DNA of 64,000 nucleotides from Thermorudis peleae (lineage in GTDB: Bacteria; Chloroflexota; Chloroflexia; Thermomicrobiales; Thermomicrobiaceae): assembly GCF_000744775.1 (NCBI RefSeq), contig NZ_JQMP01000003.1, forward strand, positions 682,001 to 746,000, given 5' to 3'. The position numbers were made by a program, and so were the translations under genes. Of this stretch, positions 28,784-35,884 are shown in pieces. How positions within the stretch are numbered: the first letter of the stretch is position 1; each line of letters starts with the position of its first letter. A model generated the notes under the pieces. The model did no database searches, was not told the origin of the DNA, and was given only the letters and a program-made list of their open reading frames with translations.

Positions 28784-29887
28784 CTAGAGATCACGGAATA
28801 ATCCTGGCAGCAGCGCGGACTCTTCGTCGTCATCAAGTGGCTCAGCGGGTGTTGGTGCTGGCGTCTCTTCGCCGCTACCATCGTAGTGAATCCGATGCCG
28901 GAGTTCCGGCGCGGCCTGGCGAATTCGCTGTTCGATTTCCTGAAGTACGCTGGGATTAGCCTTAAGGAAGGCCTTCGCGTTCTCTCGGCCTTGCCCAAGC
29001 CGCTCGTCCCCCAGGTAGTACCATGCACCGCTCTTGCGGATAATCCCGAGGTCTGTGGCGACGTCCAAGACGTTTCCTACAACTGAGATGCCTTCGTTGT
29101 ACATAATGTCGAATTCAGCCTGACGGAAGGGCGGTGCGACCTTATTCTTGACGACCTTGACGCGCACGCGCATGCCAACGGTGTCTTGGCCTTCCTTAAT
29201 AACGTCGACCTTGCGAATATCAAGACGAACTGAAGCGTAGAATTTGAGGGCCATTCCTCCCGTCGTCGTCTCGGGATTGCCGTACATGACACCGATCTTC
29301 ATCCGGAGTTGGTTAATAAAGATGACGGCAGTCTTCGAGCGGTTAATCGCGCTGGTTAGCTTGCGGAGTGCCTGGCTCATGAGCCGAGCTTGGAGTCCAA
29401 CGTGCGCGTCACCCATCTCGCCTTCGATCTCTGCTCGTGGGACGAGCGCGGCGACCGAGTCGATCACGACAACGTCGACTGCGCCACTCCGCACGAGAGT
29501 TTCGGTAATCTCAAGCGCTTGCTCGCCCGTATCGGGCTGAGCAATAAGCAGACTGTCGAGATCAACACCAAGGCGCTCGGCATAAATCGGGTCGAAGGCA
29601 TGCTCAGCGTCAATATAGGCGGCAACACCGCCAAGTTTCTGGGCTTGGGCAATGACGCTGAGGGCAAGCGTCGTCTTCCCGCTTGACTCTGGGCCATAGA
29701 CTTCAGTAATGCGTCCACGTGGAATACCACCAACGCCGAGTGCGAGGTCAAGGGCGATTGCTCCCGTTGGGATGACCTCGACCTGGAGTTTGCTCGTATC
29801 TTCACCTAGGCGCATAATGGCGCCTTTGCCGTACTGTCGCTCAATCTGTGAAATGGCGAGCTCGAGAGCCTTCTGTCGATCTGCCAT
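28784..29887 (-). CDS. recA: Recombinase RecA
   Basis: A 367-residue strand-exchange ATPase. Walker A is [10 protein letters not shown] near residue 67, Walker B is [15 protein letters not shown] near 140, and L2 has [20 protein letters not shown] near 200. The C-terminus is acidic as usual. It has its own promoter with a possible SOS operator overlapping the start site, and no recX follows; an ABC exporter does. Confidence 0.97.
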
Positions 29888-29923
29888 GGATGCCTGCCTT
29901 CCTGATCACCAGCGCCTTTCGGC

Positions 29924-29935
29924 GAAAGAATGTTC
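29924..29935 (-). promoter_or_regulatory. Possible LexA (SOS) box
   Basis: On the minus strand GAACATTCTTTC differs by one base from the Gram-positive SOS core GAAC-N4-GTTC. It overlaps the predicted transcription start of recA (7 bp after the -10), where a repressor would block transcription. LexA sites vary in Chloroflexota, so this is tentative. Confidence 0.35.
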
Positions 29936-29941
29936 TGTCTT

Positions 29942-29970
29942 ATGGTACTCCAGCGGTGCTGCAATGTCAA
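29942..29970 (-). promoter_or_regulatory. recA promoter
   Basis: On the minus strand: TTGACA (29965-29970), 17-bp spacer, TACCAT (29942-29947). The -35 overlaps the last codons of the upstream DarA-like gene. Transcription would begin near 29935, about 48 bp before the recA ATG. Confidence 0.65.
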
Positions 29971-30323
29971 CTAACGGGGCCACTGATGCGCTCGATCCGC
30001 TCGACTGGGAGTGTGAAGATGATTGCGCCACCAACTTCAACTTCGAAGTTCTCTGGCAAGTATAAGAGACCTGGTTCAACTGCCGGGACATAGGGGACGA
30101 CGATCTCCTTACGGCGGCGGCAGGTTCGCCGAATAATTGCGAGGGTGCGGTTCACCTGGTCATCTTCGACGCCAAGGAATAGGCTAACGTTATCACGACG
30201 AAGTAGCGCGCCAGCACTCGTGATGCGGGTCATTCGTAAGCCCTCGGCGACCAGTTCGTCCATGAGTTTCTCAGCGTCTTCACTCTGAACGATCGCGATC
30301 AGAAGTTTCACGCGGTTCTCCAC
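29967..30323 (-). CDS. Cyclic-di-AMP receptor protein (DarA/PstA type, PII-like)
   Basis: A 118-residue PII-like protein. The family pattern is clear: KLLIAIVQSEDAEKLMDEL at the N-terminus, RMTRITSAGALLRRDN with the T-x-G-x-x-L-R loop, SLFLGVEDDQVNRTLAII, and VEVGGAIIFTLPVERIERI at the C-terminus. Homologues (Bacillus DarA, Staphylococcus PstA) bind c-di-AMP as trimers; the downstream partner is unknown. A GTG start with AGAGGTG upstream is used. Its presence implies that this organism makes c-di-AMP. It lies just upstream of recA. Confidence 0.88.
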   Translation of the reverse strand: MENRVKLLIAIVQSEDAEKLMDELVAEGLRMTRITSAGALLRRDNVSLFLGVEDDQVNRTLAIIRRTCRRRKEIVVPYVPAVEPGLLYLPENFEVEVGGAIIFTLPVERIERISGPVS

Positions 30324-30437: not shown

Positions 30438-32057
30438 TCAGGCATTGACCGCCGCGTCGGCGGCAAGCGACGCAAGCACGTCTCGAACGGTTAAAAGTCC
30501 TTGCCCAAAGACCCGGTTGATTTGCGTGCTATAGGCAAGTGTCCCATCGAAAACCACGGAAGGCTCCCCTTCTGCGATCACCTCACCCTCGGCGAGGAGT
30601 ACCACCCAATCAGCACACAGGGCAATGAGTTCACAGTCGTGCGAGGTAAGTATGACAGTTTTTCCTTCCTCTGCCAGAGCGCGGAGATGTTGTGCAAGCA
30701 CGTGCTTGAATTCCGGATCAAGTCCTCGCGTTGGTTCGTCAAGGAGGAGCACAGGCGGATCGTGTGCGACAGCAATCGCGAGAGCAAGACGTTGTTGCTC
30801 GCCAACACTAAGGTCATACGGGTGTTTAGCCGCAACAGCAGTGAGCTGAAATGCATGGAGCAGGTCCTGCAGTCGAGCTGCGCGTGAAGCCGCGTTCGTG
30901 TCAAGACTGGTGCACAGTTCTTCCTCAACACGTTCAGTAAGGAAGAGCGTGCTCGGTAGTTGAGGCACGTAGCCCATCCAGCGTGTGCGCTCTTCCACAG
31001 GGACTTTCGTAATGTCACGATCACCGAGCCATATCCGACCTTCGCGTGGCCTGATAAGACCGCGGATTGCCCGGAGCAGTGTTGTCTTGCCTGCCCCGTT
31101 CCGGCCGAGAATAGCCGTGACCGCTCCGTGCGGACAATGGAGTGTGCATGCTCGCAGCCCCCAACTGCCTGACGCAAACTGGACGCTAAGGCGCTCAACA
31201 CGAATCCCAGGTTCCCGCGGAGCTTGGCGTATTACCCGCTTGGAGAGTGTCATCGGCTTGGCACGTACGTGTTGGCGTGCTTCACGAACAGTTAACGGCA
31301 GTGGCCGCCAGTCAAGTGCCATGCCAAGCTGGATAAGTGGCGGTGGGTATGGGAGCAGCGGAGCGATACTGCGTGGCTCGCCATCATGGACGATCTGACC
31401 ATCTGCCATGATGACAAGGCGAGTACAGTTGCCGAGGACACGCTCAAGCCGATGTTCAGTCAGGACAAGCGTTAACCCGAGATCGCTCGTCAGCTGGGTT
31501 AAGACGCTCAGCAGCGACTCTGCCGCCCAGGGGTCAAGCTGGGATGTTGGCTCGTCAAGTGCCAAGATCGTTGGGCGTGTCGCGAGGGCAACGGCTAATG
31601 CTACACGCTGTCGTTCTCCGCCAGAAAGCGTGTGAATGCGGCGACCATGCAGTGCACTAATCCCAAGAATGTCAAGTGCTTCCTCAGTTCGGAGTCGTGC
31701 AGCCTGGGGACTAAAGCCAAGACTTTCCAAGGCAAATTGCAGTTCTTCTGCAACCCGGTCGACGACTACTTGCGTTTCAGGATCTTGAGCGAGAAATCCC
31801 ACGAGATGGCTCAGTTGGGCTGGACGTATGGTCTTTGTATCACGGCCAGCGACATAAACTGATCCTCCGAAAGTGCCACCGGTGAAGTGAGGGATGAGGC
31901 CATTGAGTGTCCGCAACAACGTTGATTTCCCAGCCCCCGATCGGCCTGCGATCACCACAAATTCGCCTTCGTCGACCGTCCAGTTTGGAATCGTCAACGC
32001 TGGCGTGCTGCTCCCTGGATAGCAATAGCGCACTGAACGAAGTTCAATGATTGCCAT
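30438..32057 (-). CDS. ECF transporter double ATPase (EcfA1-EcfA2 fusion)
   Basis: A 539-residue protein containing two complete ABC ATPase domains. Domain 1 (about 1-230) has AGRSGAGKSTLL, LSGGERQRVALA and LALDEPTSQLD. Domain 2 (about 285-520) has LGRNGAGKTTLL, LSVGEQQRLALA and LLLDEPTRGLD. This is the energising module of energy-coupling-factor vitamin importers. It lies 1 bp after the T component gene, the last gene of the cobalamin-riboswitch operon, so it most likely powers cobalamin or corrinoid uptake. Confidence 0.92.
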   Translation of the reverse strand: MAIIELRSVRYCYPGSSTPALTIPNWTVDEGEFVVIAGRSGAGKSTLLRTLNGLIPHFTGGTFGGSVYVAGRDTKTIRPAQLSHLVGFLAQDPETQVVVDRVAEELQFALESLGFSPQAARLRTEEALDILGISALHGRRIHTLSGGERQRVALAVALATRPTILALDEPTSQLDPWAAESLLSVLTQLTSDLGLTLVLTEHRLERVLGNCTRLVIMADGQIVHDGEPRSIAPLLPYPPPLIQLGMALDWRPLPLTVREARQHVRAKPMTLSKRVIRQAPREPGIRVERLSVQFASGSWGLRACTLHCPHGAVTAILGRNGAGKTTLLRAIRGLIRPREGRIWLGDRDITKVPVEERTRWMGYVPQLPSTLFLTERVEEELCTSLDTNAASRAARLQDLLHAFQLTAVAAKHPYDLSVGEQQRLALAIAVAHDPPVLLLDEPTRGLDPEFKHVLAQHLRALAEEGKTVILTSHDCELIALCADWVVLLAEGEVIAEGEPSVVFDGTLAYSTQINRVFGQGLLTVRDVLASLAADAAVNA

Positions 32058-32058
32058 A

Positions 32059-33030
32059 TCACGTTCCTATGGTGAGTGTTGGAAGCGCAAGCAAAGCAGC
32101 TGCAAGAGTCGGATACAGGGCGAGTGGGGGAAGAGTCAGTGTTGGATAGGTAGAGTATTGGAGTATTTGTGGCTGCAGCAGAAGTGTGCCCCAGAGAATG
32201 CTAAGGCTCAGGATAGTCATGGCAAGACTGAGACGATGCGGGCGGTCCCATGGAAGCTGCAGGATACGCGGCCAAATGAGGATGACAAAGAGGCTGAGGC
32301 CAAGCAAAACGAGGCCAACGGCAATGCCTGTTACGACGCCGTTGGTGCCGAGAAGCCCAAGGATAAGCCCAAGCGTTCCACAGAGCAGGCAACCGAGGGC
32401 ACTATATTCTTTCCAACTTGGTCGCATGCGGCCGTATCCGCGGCATTCAAGGGTTTCCGCAAGTGCGAGCGCATAGGTGAATCCATGGTGCAGCATGCTT
32501 GAAAGCAACCAGCTAAGCCGAATGCTCTGGGTGCTTGGAATCCCACGAATAGTTTGCGCCTCGCGGATGTCGTGAAAAGCCCGAACAGCGGAGGGGAAAA
32601 TCGTTCCAGCAAGGGCAACGGCAACCGCCACTGAACTGAATCCTGGGGGAATAAGACGAAGGATTTCGAAGCCGTCGAGCGCTGCATATACGGTTATCCC
32701 AACGATAATAGCCGTCGTTAGGGCAAGCGCAGTGCACAAGCCGTACACCAATGCGTTGAGCGTAAGTGGCCCACCGACAATTGGCCATGATGCGGGCAGT
32801 TGCAGCATGACCCTGTCTCCAATATGAGCGGTGAGGACATTAAAGAGCACACTGACCACACTGAGCGTGCTGCTGATCACGAGCGATTGCCGGACTGCGC
32901 TCCACGAAGCAACCGAGAGTTGCACAGCGAGTACACTCAACACCGTTATCCCCAAATACCAGGGGTTCCGTGTTGATGAAATCAAGGTCAAGGCTGCGCC
33001 TGCCCAGAGGAGCCAAGTCAGCGCATTCAT
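32059..33030 (-). CDS. ECF transporter transmembrane component (EcfT)
   Basis: A 323-residue polytopic protein with about eight hydrophobic segments. The two cytoplasmic coupling-helix signatures of EcfT are recognisable: REAQTIRGIP near residue 168 and LAETLECRGYG near 200 (family forms: EAQ..RG and A.E.RG). It is longer than usual, with an extra hydrophobic C-terminal region. The start at 33030 overlaps the preceding gene by ATGA; an upstream start is possible but would lie inside that gene. No substrate-binding S component is encoded in this operon. Confidence 0.85.
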   Translation of the reverse strand: MNALTWLLWAGAALTLISSTRNPWYLGITVLSVLAVQLSVASWSAVRQSLVISSTLSVVSVLFNVLTAHIGDRVMLQLPASWPIVGGPLTLNALVYGLCTALALTTAIIVGITVYAALDGFEILRLIPPGFSSVAVAVALAGTIFPSAVRAFHDIREAQTIRGIPSTQSIRLSWLLSSMLHHGFTYALALAETLECRGYGRMRPSWKEYSALGCLLCGTLGLILGLLGTNGVVTGIAVGLVLLGLSLFVILIWPRILQLPWDRPHRLSLAMTILSLSILWGTLLLQPQILQYSTYPTLTLPPLALYPTLAAALLALPTLTIGT

Positions 33031-34058
33031 TCTCTCCCCCGTTGTGGCTTGATGTGCCGCCGCCAAATTGTCCAGCCCATCAACCCGATGATGGCGATGA
33101 CGAGTGCTCCATAGATGCTGTACATGGCCAGTCGATGCTGCTCGCGTCCTGGCCGCTGTGATAGTGGTGGGGCAGATCCGACGCTCGGCCCATTGCTGAC
33201 GATCGGCGTAGCCAGCACAGTCGGCTGCGCGAGGGTTGAGAATGGCGAAGGTACGGCACTTGCTGGAATCGTCGTTGGCGATGGGAGAGCAGAAGGGGAG
33301 GGCGAACCTAACGGAGGTGATGGCATGATCGCCGGTGGTGAAGGCGTTGCTGGTTGTGGTGTTGAAGCCATGGTCGGCGGTGATGTTGCTGCTGAAGGCG
33401 GTACGGTGGGGGGCACGGTTGGGGTCGAAGGGCGCGTTGGTATCACGGTCGCTTGTGCTTGAGAAGGAAGCGCAGGGGGTGGCGTTGGAGGTAGTGGCGA
33501 TGGCCCTGCCGTTGGCTGCGTGTGGCGTTGGACGCCGGCCTGCGCTGCAATAGCATCGATTGACGTTGCCGGCAAGCCGCTAGCACCTGCTGTCCACGAC
33601 CAACCATCGACATCGCCGTCGTGGATCTTGCGATTCGATGCCCCCACCGTCTGCAGTATCCATGTGCCCTCGGGTGTTAAGCGGTAGTAATGCCAAAAGT
33701 ACGCAGGGTTACTATAGCTTTTGCAGAAGCAGTTCTCGGCTGGGCATCCTTCTTGGTTAATCGCGCAGACAGCAGCGCCAAGGCCAGGGTAGGTTGCAAT
33801 CGTGATCGGTACCCCAGCCCGTTGCAAAAGGTCGAGCCCTGTGATCTCTGGTTCCGTAAACTCAACGTAGTGCATTTCGATGTGGCCGTCGCCATGACGA
33901 ATGACGAGGCCAGCGCCGTTTGGTCGATCGGCGCTGGCCGTCAGCAGTGCAATTGGCCAAAGAAGGAGCGTGAAGATGAGGGCGAGAGGCCAGCGACGAT
34001 GTCGCTGACCTCGGAATACCCGTCGGTGACGATTGTGCACCGGGTGATCGACCCTCAC
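33027..34058 (-). CDS. DUF4430 (transcobalamin C-terminal-like) membrane-anchored surface protein
   Basis: A 343-residue protein: basic N-terminus with a signal/anchor helix (about 22-42), a DUF4430 domain (about 48-160), a long Pro/Ser/Thr/Ala spacer (about 180-305) and a C-terminal membrane helix (about 312-334) followed by a basic tail. DUF4430 (PF14478) is the family of the beta-rich C-terminal domain of animal transcobalamin and intrinsic factor; the characteristic WILQTVGASNRKIHDGD segment is present. Four cysteines (98, 105, 110, 112) form a tight cluster not expected for a simple DUF4430. It is 11 bp downstream of the barrel protein gene. Confidence 0.75.
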   Translation of the reverse strand: MRVDHPVHNRHRRVFRGQRHRRWPLALIFTLLLWPIALLTASADRPNGAGLVIRHGDGHIEMHYVEFTEPEITGLDLLQRAGVPITIATYPGLGAAVCAINQEGCPAENCFCKSYSNPAYFWHYYRLTPEGTWILQTVGASNRKIHDGDVDGWSWTAGASGLPATSIDAIAAQAGVQRHTQPTAGPSPLPPTPPPALPSQAQATVIPTRPSTPTVPPTVPPSAATSPPTMASTPQPATPSPPAIMPSPPLGSPSPSALPSPTTIPASAVPSPFSTLAQPTVLATPIVSNGPSVGSAPPLSQRPGREQHRLAMYSIYGALVIAIIGLMGWTIWRRHIKPQRGRE

Positions 34059-34069
34059 CGTTCCCTCGA

Positions 34070-35602
34070 CTAGGACACTCCAAGTTGTTCAGCACCAAGA
34101 CGTGTGAGGAGTACGTCATACCGCGTTGGCCAGGCACCGGGATGCCACTCGAAGCGGGCCCGCTCGAAGACCTGAACCACCACCCCGTTCTCGGTGTACT
34201 CCTCGCTCAGCGGATAACCAAAGACTGCAAGCCCGCCGAATTGCTCCCAGTAGGCCCGGAAGCCATTGCACACGTTGTGGTGTGTCTCCGGGAAATAGCG
34301 GCAGGCAGGATTTGTCGATTGTGGTGTCTGCTGGAATGCCGGGCCATGGGCATGGGTTGCTGCCCATTCAGCTCCGAGGCGCCCGAGGAGGATCATCGGC
34401 TGGCCTTGCATGTCGGGGTGCCACTCAAGCCGAGCTCGCTCGAACCACTGAACCACAGCTCCCCGTTGGGCGTCATAGTATGGACGTGTCAGTGGGTAGC
34501 CAAGGTTTGGCAACCCCCCAGCTTGTTGCCAGGTTGTTCGGAAGGCGCCACAGAGGTTGTGGTGGGTCTCGGCAAAGAAATCGCAATCGAGGCTATCTTG
34601 AATTTCATCCTGTCGAGCGACAACTGAGGCGCTTTGGAGCATGAACGGGAACGGAACGGCAGCCAGGGCAGGAAGTGCTTGGACGGTCGCGAGGAGATTG
34701 TCGTCGGGACTGTCATTCCGCCAGCGAAACGCTCCGTCGGCATTGGCAAAGCGGAGCAGTGCTGCCGAGGCGTTATGCCAATCGTTGCTTTCGGGATGTT
34801 GCCCAGCGGCGAGGGTCGCCTGGATAGCTAATGCCGTTGAGTTGGCGTCACCGTCCTGCCCGGGCTGATAACCAAAAGAACCATCGGGTTGCTGGACGGT
34901 GTGAAGATACCCAAGCCCCTTGACGATTACCGGGTCATTTGCGGCAACGCCCGCTGCACGCAACGCCTGCAGCACGATTGCGGTTGTGTTGCTATCCCCG
35001 GCGCCAGCATCAGTGCTTCCATCCCATGCCCAACTGCCGTCTGCTCCCTGATGTGCGATGAGTCCCTGAACCGCTTGCTGTGGGATCTCGACTTTGGCTG
35101 CTGCAAGGGCCAGAAGTGCATAGGCATCTGCAAAGAGCTGCGAAGAGTAGAGCCCCGTCTTTGGATCGTAGGCTTGCGTAATTTGGCGAATAAGATCAAG
35201 CCCGCCAAAAGAACGTGGGGACTGGCCACTTGCGATAACGGCAAGTGCAAGTTTTGCTGCTCCGCCAACGGTGTTGGCGTAGTTTGTGGCTTGCGCCGCA
35301 AGGAAGTCAAGCGGGGACTTTTGATTACGCGTAACACTGGCTGGGTCAATCCCGAAAGAGGCGAGTGCGAGCACGACATCACTGGTGGTGCTTGGATCAC
35401 TTTGTCCTTTCAAGCCGGGAAAGCCCCCGTCATCCTTCTGCTGGGTCAGGAGCCACCGAACTGCACGGACTCCAGTTGTCGCAGAGGCCAGCGTATCAGC
35501 GTGGACAGTAAGGGCCGGCGCGAGAAGAAACGTGAGTGCCAGGATAAGAGCAGACAAAGGTCGCCAACGTTGGCCAAGCACGATCTTCCCCTTCCCAATC
35601 AT
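34070..35602 (-). CDS. Secreted transcobalamin-like alpha/alpha-barrel protein with C-terminal surface repeats
   Basis: A 510-residue exported protein. A signal peptide (1-36) precedes a prenyltransferase/terpene-cyclase-type alpha/alpha barrel (about 40-325) with repeats such as QQKDDGGFPG near 55, GADGSWAWDG near 187 and QQPDGSFGYQPG near 237, the latter two each near TTA/STA...LQA helices as in the N-terminal domain of transcobalamin. It ends in two copies (about 340-415 and 434-508) of a repeat containing ETHHN, a GYP turn and FERARxEWHP, of a kind I associate with Chloroflexota surface proteins. Catalytic aspartates of terpene cyclases (DxDD) are absent, so it is a binding protein rather than an enzyme. 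It is the first gene after the cobalamin riboswitch. Confidence 0.78.
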   Translation of the reverse strand: MIGKGKIVLGQRWRPLSALILALTFLLAPALTVHADTLASATTGVRAVRWLLTQQKDDGGFPGLKGQSDPSTTSDVVLALASFGIDPASVTRNQKSPLDFLAAQATNYANTVGGAAKLALAVIASGQSPRSFGGLDLIRQITQAYDPKTGLYSSQLFADAYALLALAAAKVEIPQQAVQGLIAHQGADGSWAWDGSTDAGAGDSNTTAIVLQALRAAGVAANDPVIVKGLGYLHTVQQPDGSFGYQPGQDGDANSTALAIQATLAAGQHPESNDWHNASAALLRFANADGAFRWRNDSPDDNLLATVQALPALAAVPFPFMLQSASVVARQDEIQDSLDCDFFAETHHNLCGAFRTTWQQAGGLPNLGYPLTRPYYDAQRGAVVQWFERARLEWHPDMQGQPMILLGRLGAEWAATHAHGPAFQQTPQSTNPACRYFPETHHNVCNGFRAYWEQFGGLAVFGYPLSEEYTENGVVVQVFERARFEWHPGAWPTRYDVLLTRLGAEQLGVS

Positions 35603-35748
35603 CGCACTACCATATGGTCACTGCCGCACGAGGCTTGTGCAGTGTTCGACAATATGCTCGTTCTGAAAGTTATCGTGGGGATTGTTCAGTGCTGTGGGAT
35701 AGAGCGGCACATCTGCGTCCTCCCCCCTTCGCTCGAGGCAGGTCGGAC

Positions 35749-35884
35749 ACGGCGGCAGCGGTAGACCTGGCTTCGTCGCTCTCATGCGACGTCACAGTTG
35801 CGGCACAGCCCCGGATTTGCACCGGAGTTCCCCCATGTGGACGAGAGGGCGTCATGTCCCCACCGCTCTCGCACCTGCCGCCGT
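35749..35884 (-). promoter_or_regulatory. Cobalamin (B12) riboswitch
   Basis: On the minus strand a perfect 10-bp P1 stem (ACGGCGGCAG pairing with CTGCCGCCGT) encloses the canonical core: GGGGGAACTCCGGTG, then CAAATCCGGGGCTG, TGCCGCAACTGTGA and the B12 box CGAAGCCAGGTCTACC. It lies about 147 bp upstream of the barrel-protein start and reads in the direction of the four-gene ECF operon, so the operon should be repressed by adenosyl- or other cobalamins. The sequence 35603-35748 between the aptamer and the gene should hold the expression platform; I cannot assign a clear terminator there. Confidence 0.93.

Follow-up and report, generated by a model that had tools for sequence, protein, structure and literature searches.

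Why would an operon behind a cobalamin riboswitch encode two surface proteins that resemble the halves of an animal vitamin carrier, together with the energizing part of a membrane importer? This question is raised by a locus of Thermorudis peleae (assembly GCF_000744775.1), which lies in a stretch of 64,000 nucleotides (contig NZ_JQMP01000003.1, positions 682,001 to 746,000; hereafter the window, within which positions are 1-based). We consider it highly probable that the locus encodes an importer of cobalamin, or of corrinoids more broadly, of the ECF-CbrT kind (ECF, energy-coupling factor), and that it receives its substrate from two proteins that capture it outside the membrane in the manner of transcobalamin; cobalamin import by the system is very likely, with binding predicted. 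The initial annotation of this DNA had proposed capture and import under B12-riboswitch control, and the riboswitch, the protein folds, the homology of the importer's S component and the co-occurrence of its parts all support that proposal.

The operon, on the minus strand, reads from 5' to 3' as a cobalamin riboswitch, a barrel (alpha/alpha-toroid) gene, a small-domain (beta-grasp) gene, EcfT and the double ATPase EcfAA' (Table 1). Each of these elements stands in the place and on the strand that the initial annotation gave it, and the tight packing described there is also found: 11 nt separate the barrel and small-domain genes, the small-domain gene and EcfT overlap by 4 nt, and 1 nt separates EcfT from EcfA. 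The leader RNA scores above the gathering threshold both with the adenosylcobalamin (AdoCbl) model RF01482 (51.2 bits; threshold 50) and, at the same site, with RF00174, the model proposed as a check (34.0 bits; threshold 31.5); a scan of the leader for a promoter and a terminator found none. All four same-family genomes tested keep the riboswitch, at 42-47 bits in Rfam, slightly under gathering, and at 92-98 bits with R1, a riboswitch model made from loci of this system. The operon as listed is confirmed as real, and the recurrence of the gene order with its riboswitch in dozens of loci in Chloroflexota and Actinobacteria goes beyond chance.

What kind of protein is each member of the surface pair? 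The small-domain protein had been called a DUF4430 protein, and yet it has no match to Pfam DUF4430 (PF14478; cut-off 23.8 bits) at E<=1. Only some operon relatives reach that cut-off (e.g. L062, 43.8 bits; L numbers denote loci and G numbers genomes, G000 being the window genome), and the match of the window protein to NCBIfam SCO2322_fam is weak and below its cut-off (E 8e-4; 19.8 bits against 85). A profile of the beta-grasp family aligns in register, and weakly, with the true DUF4430 domains of sister operons (probability 57%, P 1e-4); against the sequences of the PDB it finds no meaningful match, and structure was therefore required for an assignment. With 25 homologous small domains from related loci in the alignment, AlphaFold2 predicted the window domain at a local confidence (pLDDT) of 95.8 and a predicted TM-score (pTM) of 0.89. 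The modelled topology has a helix at 29-35 followed by strands at 40-45 and 49-55, i.e. a beta-hairpin inserted after the helix, as in the transcobalamin-like clade of the SLBB superfamily. The ten best Foldseek matches comprise the bacterial DUF4430 protein 3u7z, transcobalamin, haptocorrin and intrinsic factor, and the 15 best entries in VIA, all B12 carriers apart from one DUF4430 protein, superpose at 1.7-2.1 Å over 95-98 residues with Z of 11.3-12.7 (haptocorrin 12.7; bovine transcobalamin and intrinsic factor 12.2; next unrelated fold 6.0). Sequence identity to the animal B12 carriers is 11-14%. Given such strong structural matches and the Pfam miss, the domain as modelled has the transcobalamin beta-domain fold and falls outside Pfam DUF4430; the kinship first proposed thus survives by structure, the family name does not. 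In one related operon (L042 8523-9125, minus strand) there is a second, short beta-grasp protein whose terminal PEP-CTERM sorting signal, recognized by Pfam and NCBIfam, represents another route of surface anchoring.

The barrel protein matches squalene-hopene-cyclase-type repeats in Pfam (SQHop_cyclase), and it also carries two LGFP repeats that the initial annotation had left unnamed and that may serve attachment to the wall or surface. Against NCBIfam SCO2321_fam it scores E 5e-32, its 111 bits lying below the curated cut-off of 300. PF01122, one of the profiles put forward, matches neither the barrel nor the small-domain protein at E<=1. The proposed alpha/alpha barrel is supported through a 42%-identical relative, that of L092, whose model is an alpha/alpha barrel. 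For translation of the window protein, GTG 35581 is better supported than ATG 35602 and is likely the true start, since it has a purine-rich stretch upstream and yields a clean signal peptide.

Do the toroid and the beta domain belong together? In the window they are the products of two adjacent genes; elsewhere, in Chloroflexota and Actinobacteria alike, they are fused into one polypeptide in both domain orders, with the beta domain either C-terminal (L044, L092, L139, L141, L164) or N-terminal (L049, L090, L091, L097 and several Streptomyces). We modelled the L092 fusion (pLDDT 92, pTM 0.77) without ligand and with 4 alignment rows covering the beta domain. In alignment A4, which combined fusion and free beta-grasp rows, MAFFT had put the free rows on the barrel; folding therefore relied on A8, which was cleaner and contained fusions and barrels. 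The fifteen best full-length Foldseek matches of this fusion are transcobalamin, haptocorrin and intrinsic factor. Both the folds and the natural fusions support the idea that the two domains of transcobalamin exist here as separate proteins; the ligand-free model did not reproduce the interface between them, a point to which we return below.

The importer itself is divided in the genome. Although EcfT and EcfAA' are present, the ECF importer that had been read from the operon is incomplete there: no S component lies within the window. Both halves of EcfAA' are intact: the Walker A, signature and Walker B motifs stand at residues 38, 144 and 164 in one half and at 318, 416 and 436 in the other. 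The EcfT sequence by itself matches no Pfam or NCBIfam model, and its homologues match PF02361 (CbiQ). Sister operons with an S component (L040, L042, L046, L051, L058, L059, L062) yielded a profile, A1, with a single match in the window genome, about 100 kb away. The best solved relative of this profile is chain A of 6fnp, an ECF-CbrT entry (E 4e-15, and still 8e-8 when the most divergent rows are removed), followed by FolT-type proteins at E 2e-4 and 1e-3, respectively; the S sequence of the window genome alone retrieves nothing significant with phmmer. By these profile comparisons, the S component is a CbrT homologue for which cobalamin binding and transport are predicted. Of 301 genomes of Chloroflexota, 71 contain EcfT and 71 the S component, and 70 of the 72 having either have both (Fisher p 1e-66; by genus 4e-37, phylogeny not corrected). 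The two exceptions can be explained, as the contig of G223 stops 146 nt past EcfA, and G150 has a diverged EcfT together with EcfA and a riboswitch. The S gene of the window genome overlaps by 4 nt a BtuF-like (Peripla_BP_2) gene without a signal peptide (on G000:C3; L071 7159-8094, minus strand), a pairing also seen in two relatives (L073 and L074); its product is possibly a cytoplasmic corrinoid-binding partner.

Table 1. Elements of the candidate cobalamin uptake system (window positions, except for the S component, which is given by genome and contig).
Feature	Position	Strand	Basis
AdoCbl/cobalamin riboswitch, operon leader	35713..35850	-	RF01482, RF00174, model R1
Barrel (alpha/alpha-toroid) protein, secreted; listed length 510 aa	34070..35602	-	Open reading frame (ORF), Pfam, NCBIfam
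Toroid domain and signal-peptide end	34631..35545	-	Family profile 399 bits; 42% identity to L092 toroid
Two C-terminal LGFP-type repeats, approximate ends	34088..34600	-	PF08310 39.3 bits, cut-off 22
Signal peptide, transcobalamin-beta-like domain, Pro/Ser/Thr linker and C-terminal membrane anchor, 343 aa	33027..34058	-	ORF, termini read directly
Beta-grasp domain (transcobalamin beta-domain fold), 133 aa	33525..33923	-	AlphaFold2, Foldseek, VIA
C-terminal transmembrane anchor, approximate ends	33057..33128	-	Sequence LAMYSIYGALVIAIIGLMGWTIWRRHIK
EcfT, energy-coupling membrane subunit, 323 aa	32059..33030	-	Family profile 324 bits
EcfA-EcfA' double ATPase, 539 aa	30438..32057	-	PF00005 in two stretches; TIGR04520/04521 ~300 bits
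CbrT-like S component	G000:C3:816373-817131		PF12822 47.4 bits, cut-off 30.7

How widely is this arrangement shared? At least 592 related S-component loci exist, and the best 80, used for locus counts, come from Chloroflexota, Actinobacteria including Streptomyces, and two Acidobacteria bins. All five components stand together in 41 of these 80 loci, which were gathered via the S component, i.e. a gene other than the barrel. Among them, 48 barrel genes have sufficient sequence upstream, and for 45 of these R1 places a riboswitch on the same strand within 1.1 kb; the Rfam cobalamin clan was also matched in all eight loci tested. The survey of Chloroflexota that had been suggested thus finds the gene set recurring behind B12 riboswitches, and finds it in Actinobacteria as well; for example, Streptomyces loci L144 to L163 have the same gene set with riboswitches. 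Six of these (L144, L147, L148, L158, L161, L163) also have the module flanked by divergent toroid genes, every one with a riboswitch to itself, and so have two capture proteins apiece. Some of the operons include genes for handling the vitamin: cobS and cobC are present in Chloroflexus-like operons, with L054 and L060 among the loci whose operons hold them, and the L040 operon has an adenosyltransferase gene of the cobA/btuR type. In L185, L187 and L188 the toroid and beta-grasp genes adjoin genes for a FecCD permease and an ATP-binding cassette (ABC) ATPase, i.e. a BtuCD-type importer, to which L188 adds BtuF-like substrate-binding proteins, behind a cobalamin riboswitch; in the three genomes concerned (Chloroflexia, genus g8) the S component, EcfT and this ECF module were not found. 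It follows from the ECF-linked and FecCD-linked loci that the capture pair accompanies two unrelated kinds of importer. Downstream of the operon in the window, 3' of EcfA, lie a gene for a cyclic di-AMP (c-di-AMP) receptor and recA (28784-30323), as they do in the same-family loci L034 and L035; this synteny is conserved and has no evident connection to B12.

Does the host need such a system? CbiC is absent from the window genome and from the two same-family genomes tested, and the window genome has no match to CbiM (PF01891). B12-binding domains are present in it, and ORF reading places the small subunit of methylmalonyl-CoA mutase beside MeaB-like and adenosyltransferase-like genes. One FecCD importer is found in the window genome, heme-type by its neighbours, and none above cut-off in two same-family genomes. 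The window genome also has a second cobalamin riboswitch (G000:C3:611956-612151; L053 5957-6152, minus strand; 75 bits), upstream of a gene for the alpha subunit of a ribonucleotide reductase (RNR; L053 3438-5774) that is followed by an apparent beta subunit. This alpha subunit matches NrdE/NrdA above cut-off and NrdJ_Z at the borderline, and the genes probably encode a B12-controlled class I RNR, a type of control known in Streptomyces.

We picture the system as working in the following way. When AdoCbl is scarce, the riboswitch would permit expression of the operon, and the secreted toroid and the membrane-tethered beta-grasp protein would each grip part of one cobalamin molecule, closing on it as the domains of transcobalamin do, the ligand itself holding them together. 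From this membrane-tethered complex the cobalamin would then pass to the CbrT-like S component, whose gene lies elsewhere in the genome. EcfT and EcfAA' would power entry of the cobalamin into the cell, where it would supply methylmalonyl-CoA mutase and other B12 enzymes. For the specific idea that the cobalamin-glued surface pair is a dedicated capture complex for the ECF importer, and one able to work with importers of either type, ECF-CbrT or BtuCD, our leaning is favourable and somewhat cautious.

Several observations weigh against this picture. ECF importers as described require no extracellular binding protein (PMC5997447); the S gene is unlinked to the operon here and has no riboswitch of its own by Rfam; and because one FecCD importer is encoded in the window genome as well, the ECF system may not be the sole corrinoid route of the host. 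The structural check against transcobalamin also gave a divided answer: in the L092 fusion the single domains match, whereas the relative placement of barrel and beta domain differs, the overall root-mean-square deviation (rmsd) being ~20 Å, and the toroid alone is nearer to terpene cyclases, squalene-hopene cyclase closest, than to transcobalamin. Might the importer then be the same and the sandwich absent, with one protein (e.g. a beta-grasp receptor) binding cobalamin and the barrel binding wall, polysaccharide or another partner? The unpacked domains of the fusion model and the cyclase-like toroid would suit this account, as would the LGFP repeats, which point to surface attachment, and the ability of isolated human TC-beta (the beta domain of transcobalamin, TC) to bind cobalamin alone (PMC5599065). 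Against it stand the toroid/beta fusions in both orders and the way in which the two domains stay together even beside the other importer type. Moreover, an interface glued by ligand is beyond the reach of ligand-free models, so that the failure of a ligand-free fusion model with few beta-domain rows to reproduce the cobalamin-binding interface carries limited force: separately made human TC-alpha and TC-beta do not assemble unless cobalamin is added, and the interface that they share is very small (PMC5599065); for this reason the absent packing is not a strong negative. On balance, we regard an arrangement without a joint sandwich as doubtful.

The nature of the ligand and the role of the barrel invite other explanations, of which a corrinoid or precursor (cobinamide, incomplete cobamides) in place of complete cobalamin is the most serious. 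The cobS and cobC genes in the L054 and L060 operons would complete imported cobinamide, and CbrT also transports cobinamide (PMC5997447); human transcobalamin, on the other side, binds cobinamide less tightly than cobalamin (PMC5599065). This we think unlikely, and it alters the ligand range rather than the mechanism. That the operon encodes a B12-controlled cobalt importer of the CbiMNQO-like kind is suggested by the CbiQ name of EcfT homologues and the resemblance of the ATPase to CbiO, but secreted transcobalamin-like proteins would be senseless for cobalt ions, the partner S component is CbrT-like, and without CbiC cobalt would be of no use for corrin synthesis; the absence of both CbiC and CbiM from the window genome led us to reject this very improbable reading. 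Equally far-fetched is the view of the barrel as an enzyme of the class II terpene/squalene cyclase type whose B12 regulation is incidental to the operon. Squalene-hopene cyclases are indeed its top Pfam and structural neighbours, but the barrel is secreted, and its gene has a conserved position near the riboswitch and the genes for the beta domain and importer; the cyclase was rejected upon finding that the catalytic DxDD is absent from the window protein and present in just 2 of 23 relatives.

If capture by a toroid and beta-domain pair feeding a CbrT-type importer holds true, it connects a vitamin carrier of animals with an uptake system found widely in bacteria, and it would explain how these bacteria, lacking CbiC in the genomes named above, acquire B12. 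The unnamed families SCO2321 and SCO2322, for which our literature search found no function, would acquire one each, and an ECF importer would be seen to cooperate with capture proteins outside the membrane. A proposed bacterial origin of transcobalamin would, furthermore, become testable on small, expressible proteins.

How does this system compare with those already known? The statement in the initial annotation that no bacterial system of this layout had been described was too strong. Burroughs, Balaji, Iyer and Aravind in 2007 predicted B12 scavenging for secreted toroid and transcobalamin-like (SLBB) proteins, often in operons with CbiO/CbiQ (PMC1796856), and the likeness is close: a secreted toroid and a beta-grasp domain, fused or separate, with an ABC ATPase and CbiQ. 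The available portion of their paper names low-GC Gram-positives, planctomycetes and euryarchaea, compared with Chloroflexota and Actinobacteria here, and describes no S component, riboswitch or BtuCD pairing; the present system differs in having a diverged beta-grasp family missed by Pfam DUF4430, split genes and a CbrT-type S component. According to a 2013 riboswitch survey (PMC3766115), Herpetosiphon aurantiacus is without B12 synthesis and possesses a B12 transporter under riboswitch control, which the available part of the survey does not describe; H. aurantiacus DSM 785 (L117) carries the system described here. The idea of B12 scavenging is thus partly old, given these two predecessors. 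Our literature search found no account of this layout, and, by titles and abstracts, work joining DUF4430 with cobalamin includes none on bacterial uptake.

Among characterized transporters, ECF-CbrT of Lactobacillus delbrueckii is a proven B12 importer (PMC5997447; PDB 6FNP), and it shares with the present system a homologous S component, EcfT and two ATPases, cobalamin being the substrate that we infer here. In ECF-CbrT, many S components share one ECF module, and binding proteins outside the cell play no part (PMC5997447), whereas the module here appears dedicated, has two surface proteins, and combines both ATPases in one polypeptide. BtuFCD with the Bacteroides lipoproteins BtuG and BtuH resembles it in riboswitch-linked B12 capture outside the membrane and ATP-driven import (PMC6143338, PMC8941943); BtuG and BtuH belong to other domain families (BtuH to DUF4465), and the available parts of those two reports mention no toroid or transcobalamin-type domain. 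The window barrel and beta-grasp proteins score to NCBIfam SCO2321 and SCO2322, far below the curated cut-offs, and the Streptomyces barrel protein is a fusion of a beta-grasp domain with two toroids, unlike the window barrel. Animal transcobalamin, intrinsic factor and haptocorrin likewise join an alpha/alpha toroid to a beta-grasp domain, but in one polypeptide that is secreted into body fluids and enters cells through a receptor, whereas here two polypeptides, one of them membrane-anchored, would feed a membrane transporter. What is new relative to these systems is the split layout, the CbrT-type S component with its near-perfect co-occurrence, the linkage to a riboswitch across two phyla, and the swap of importers.

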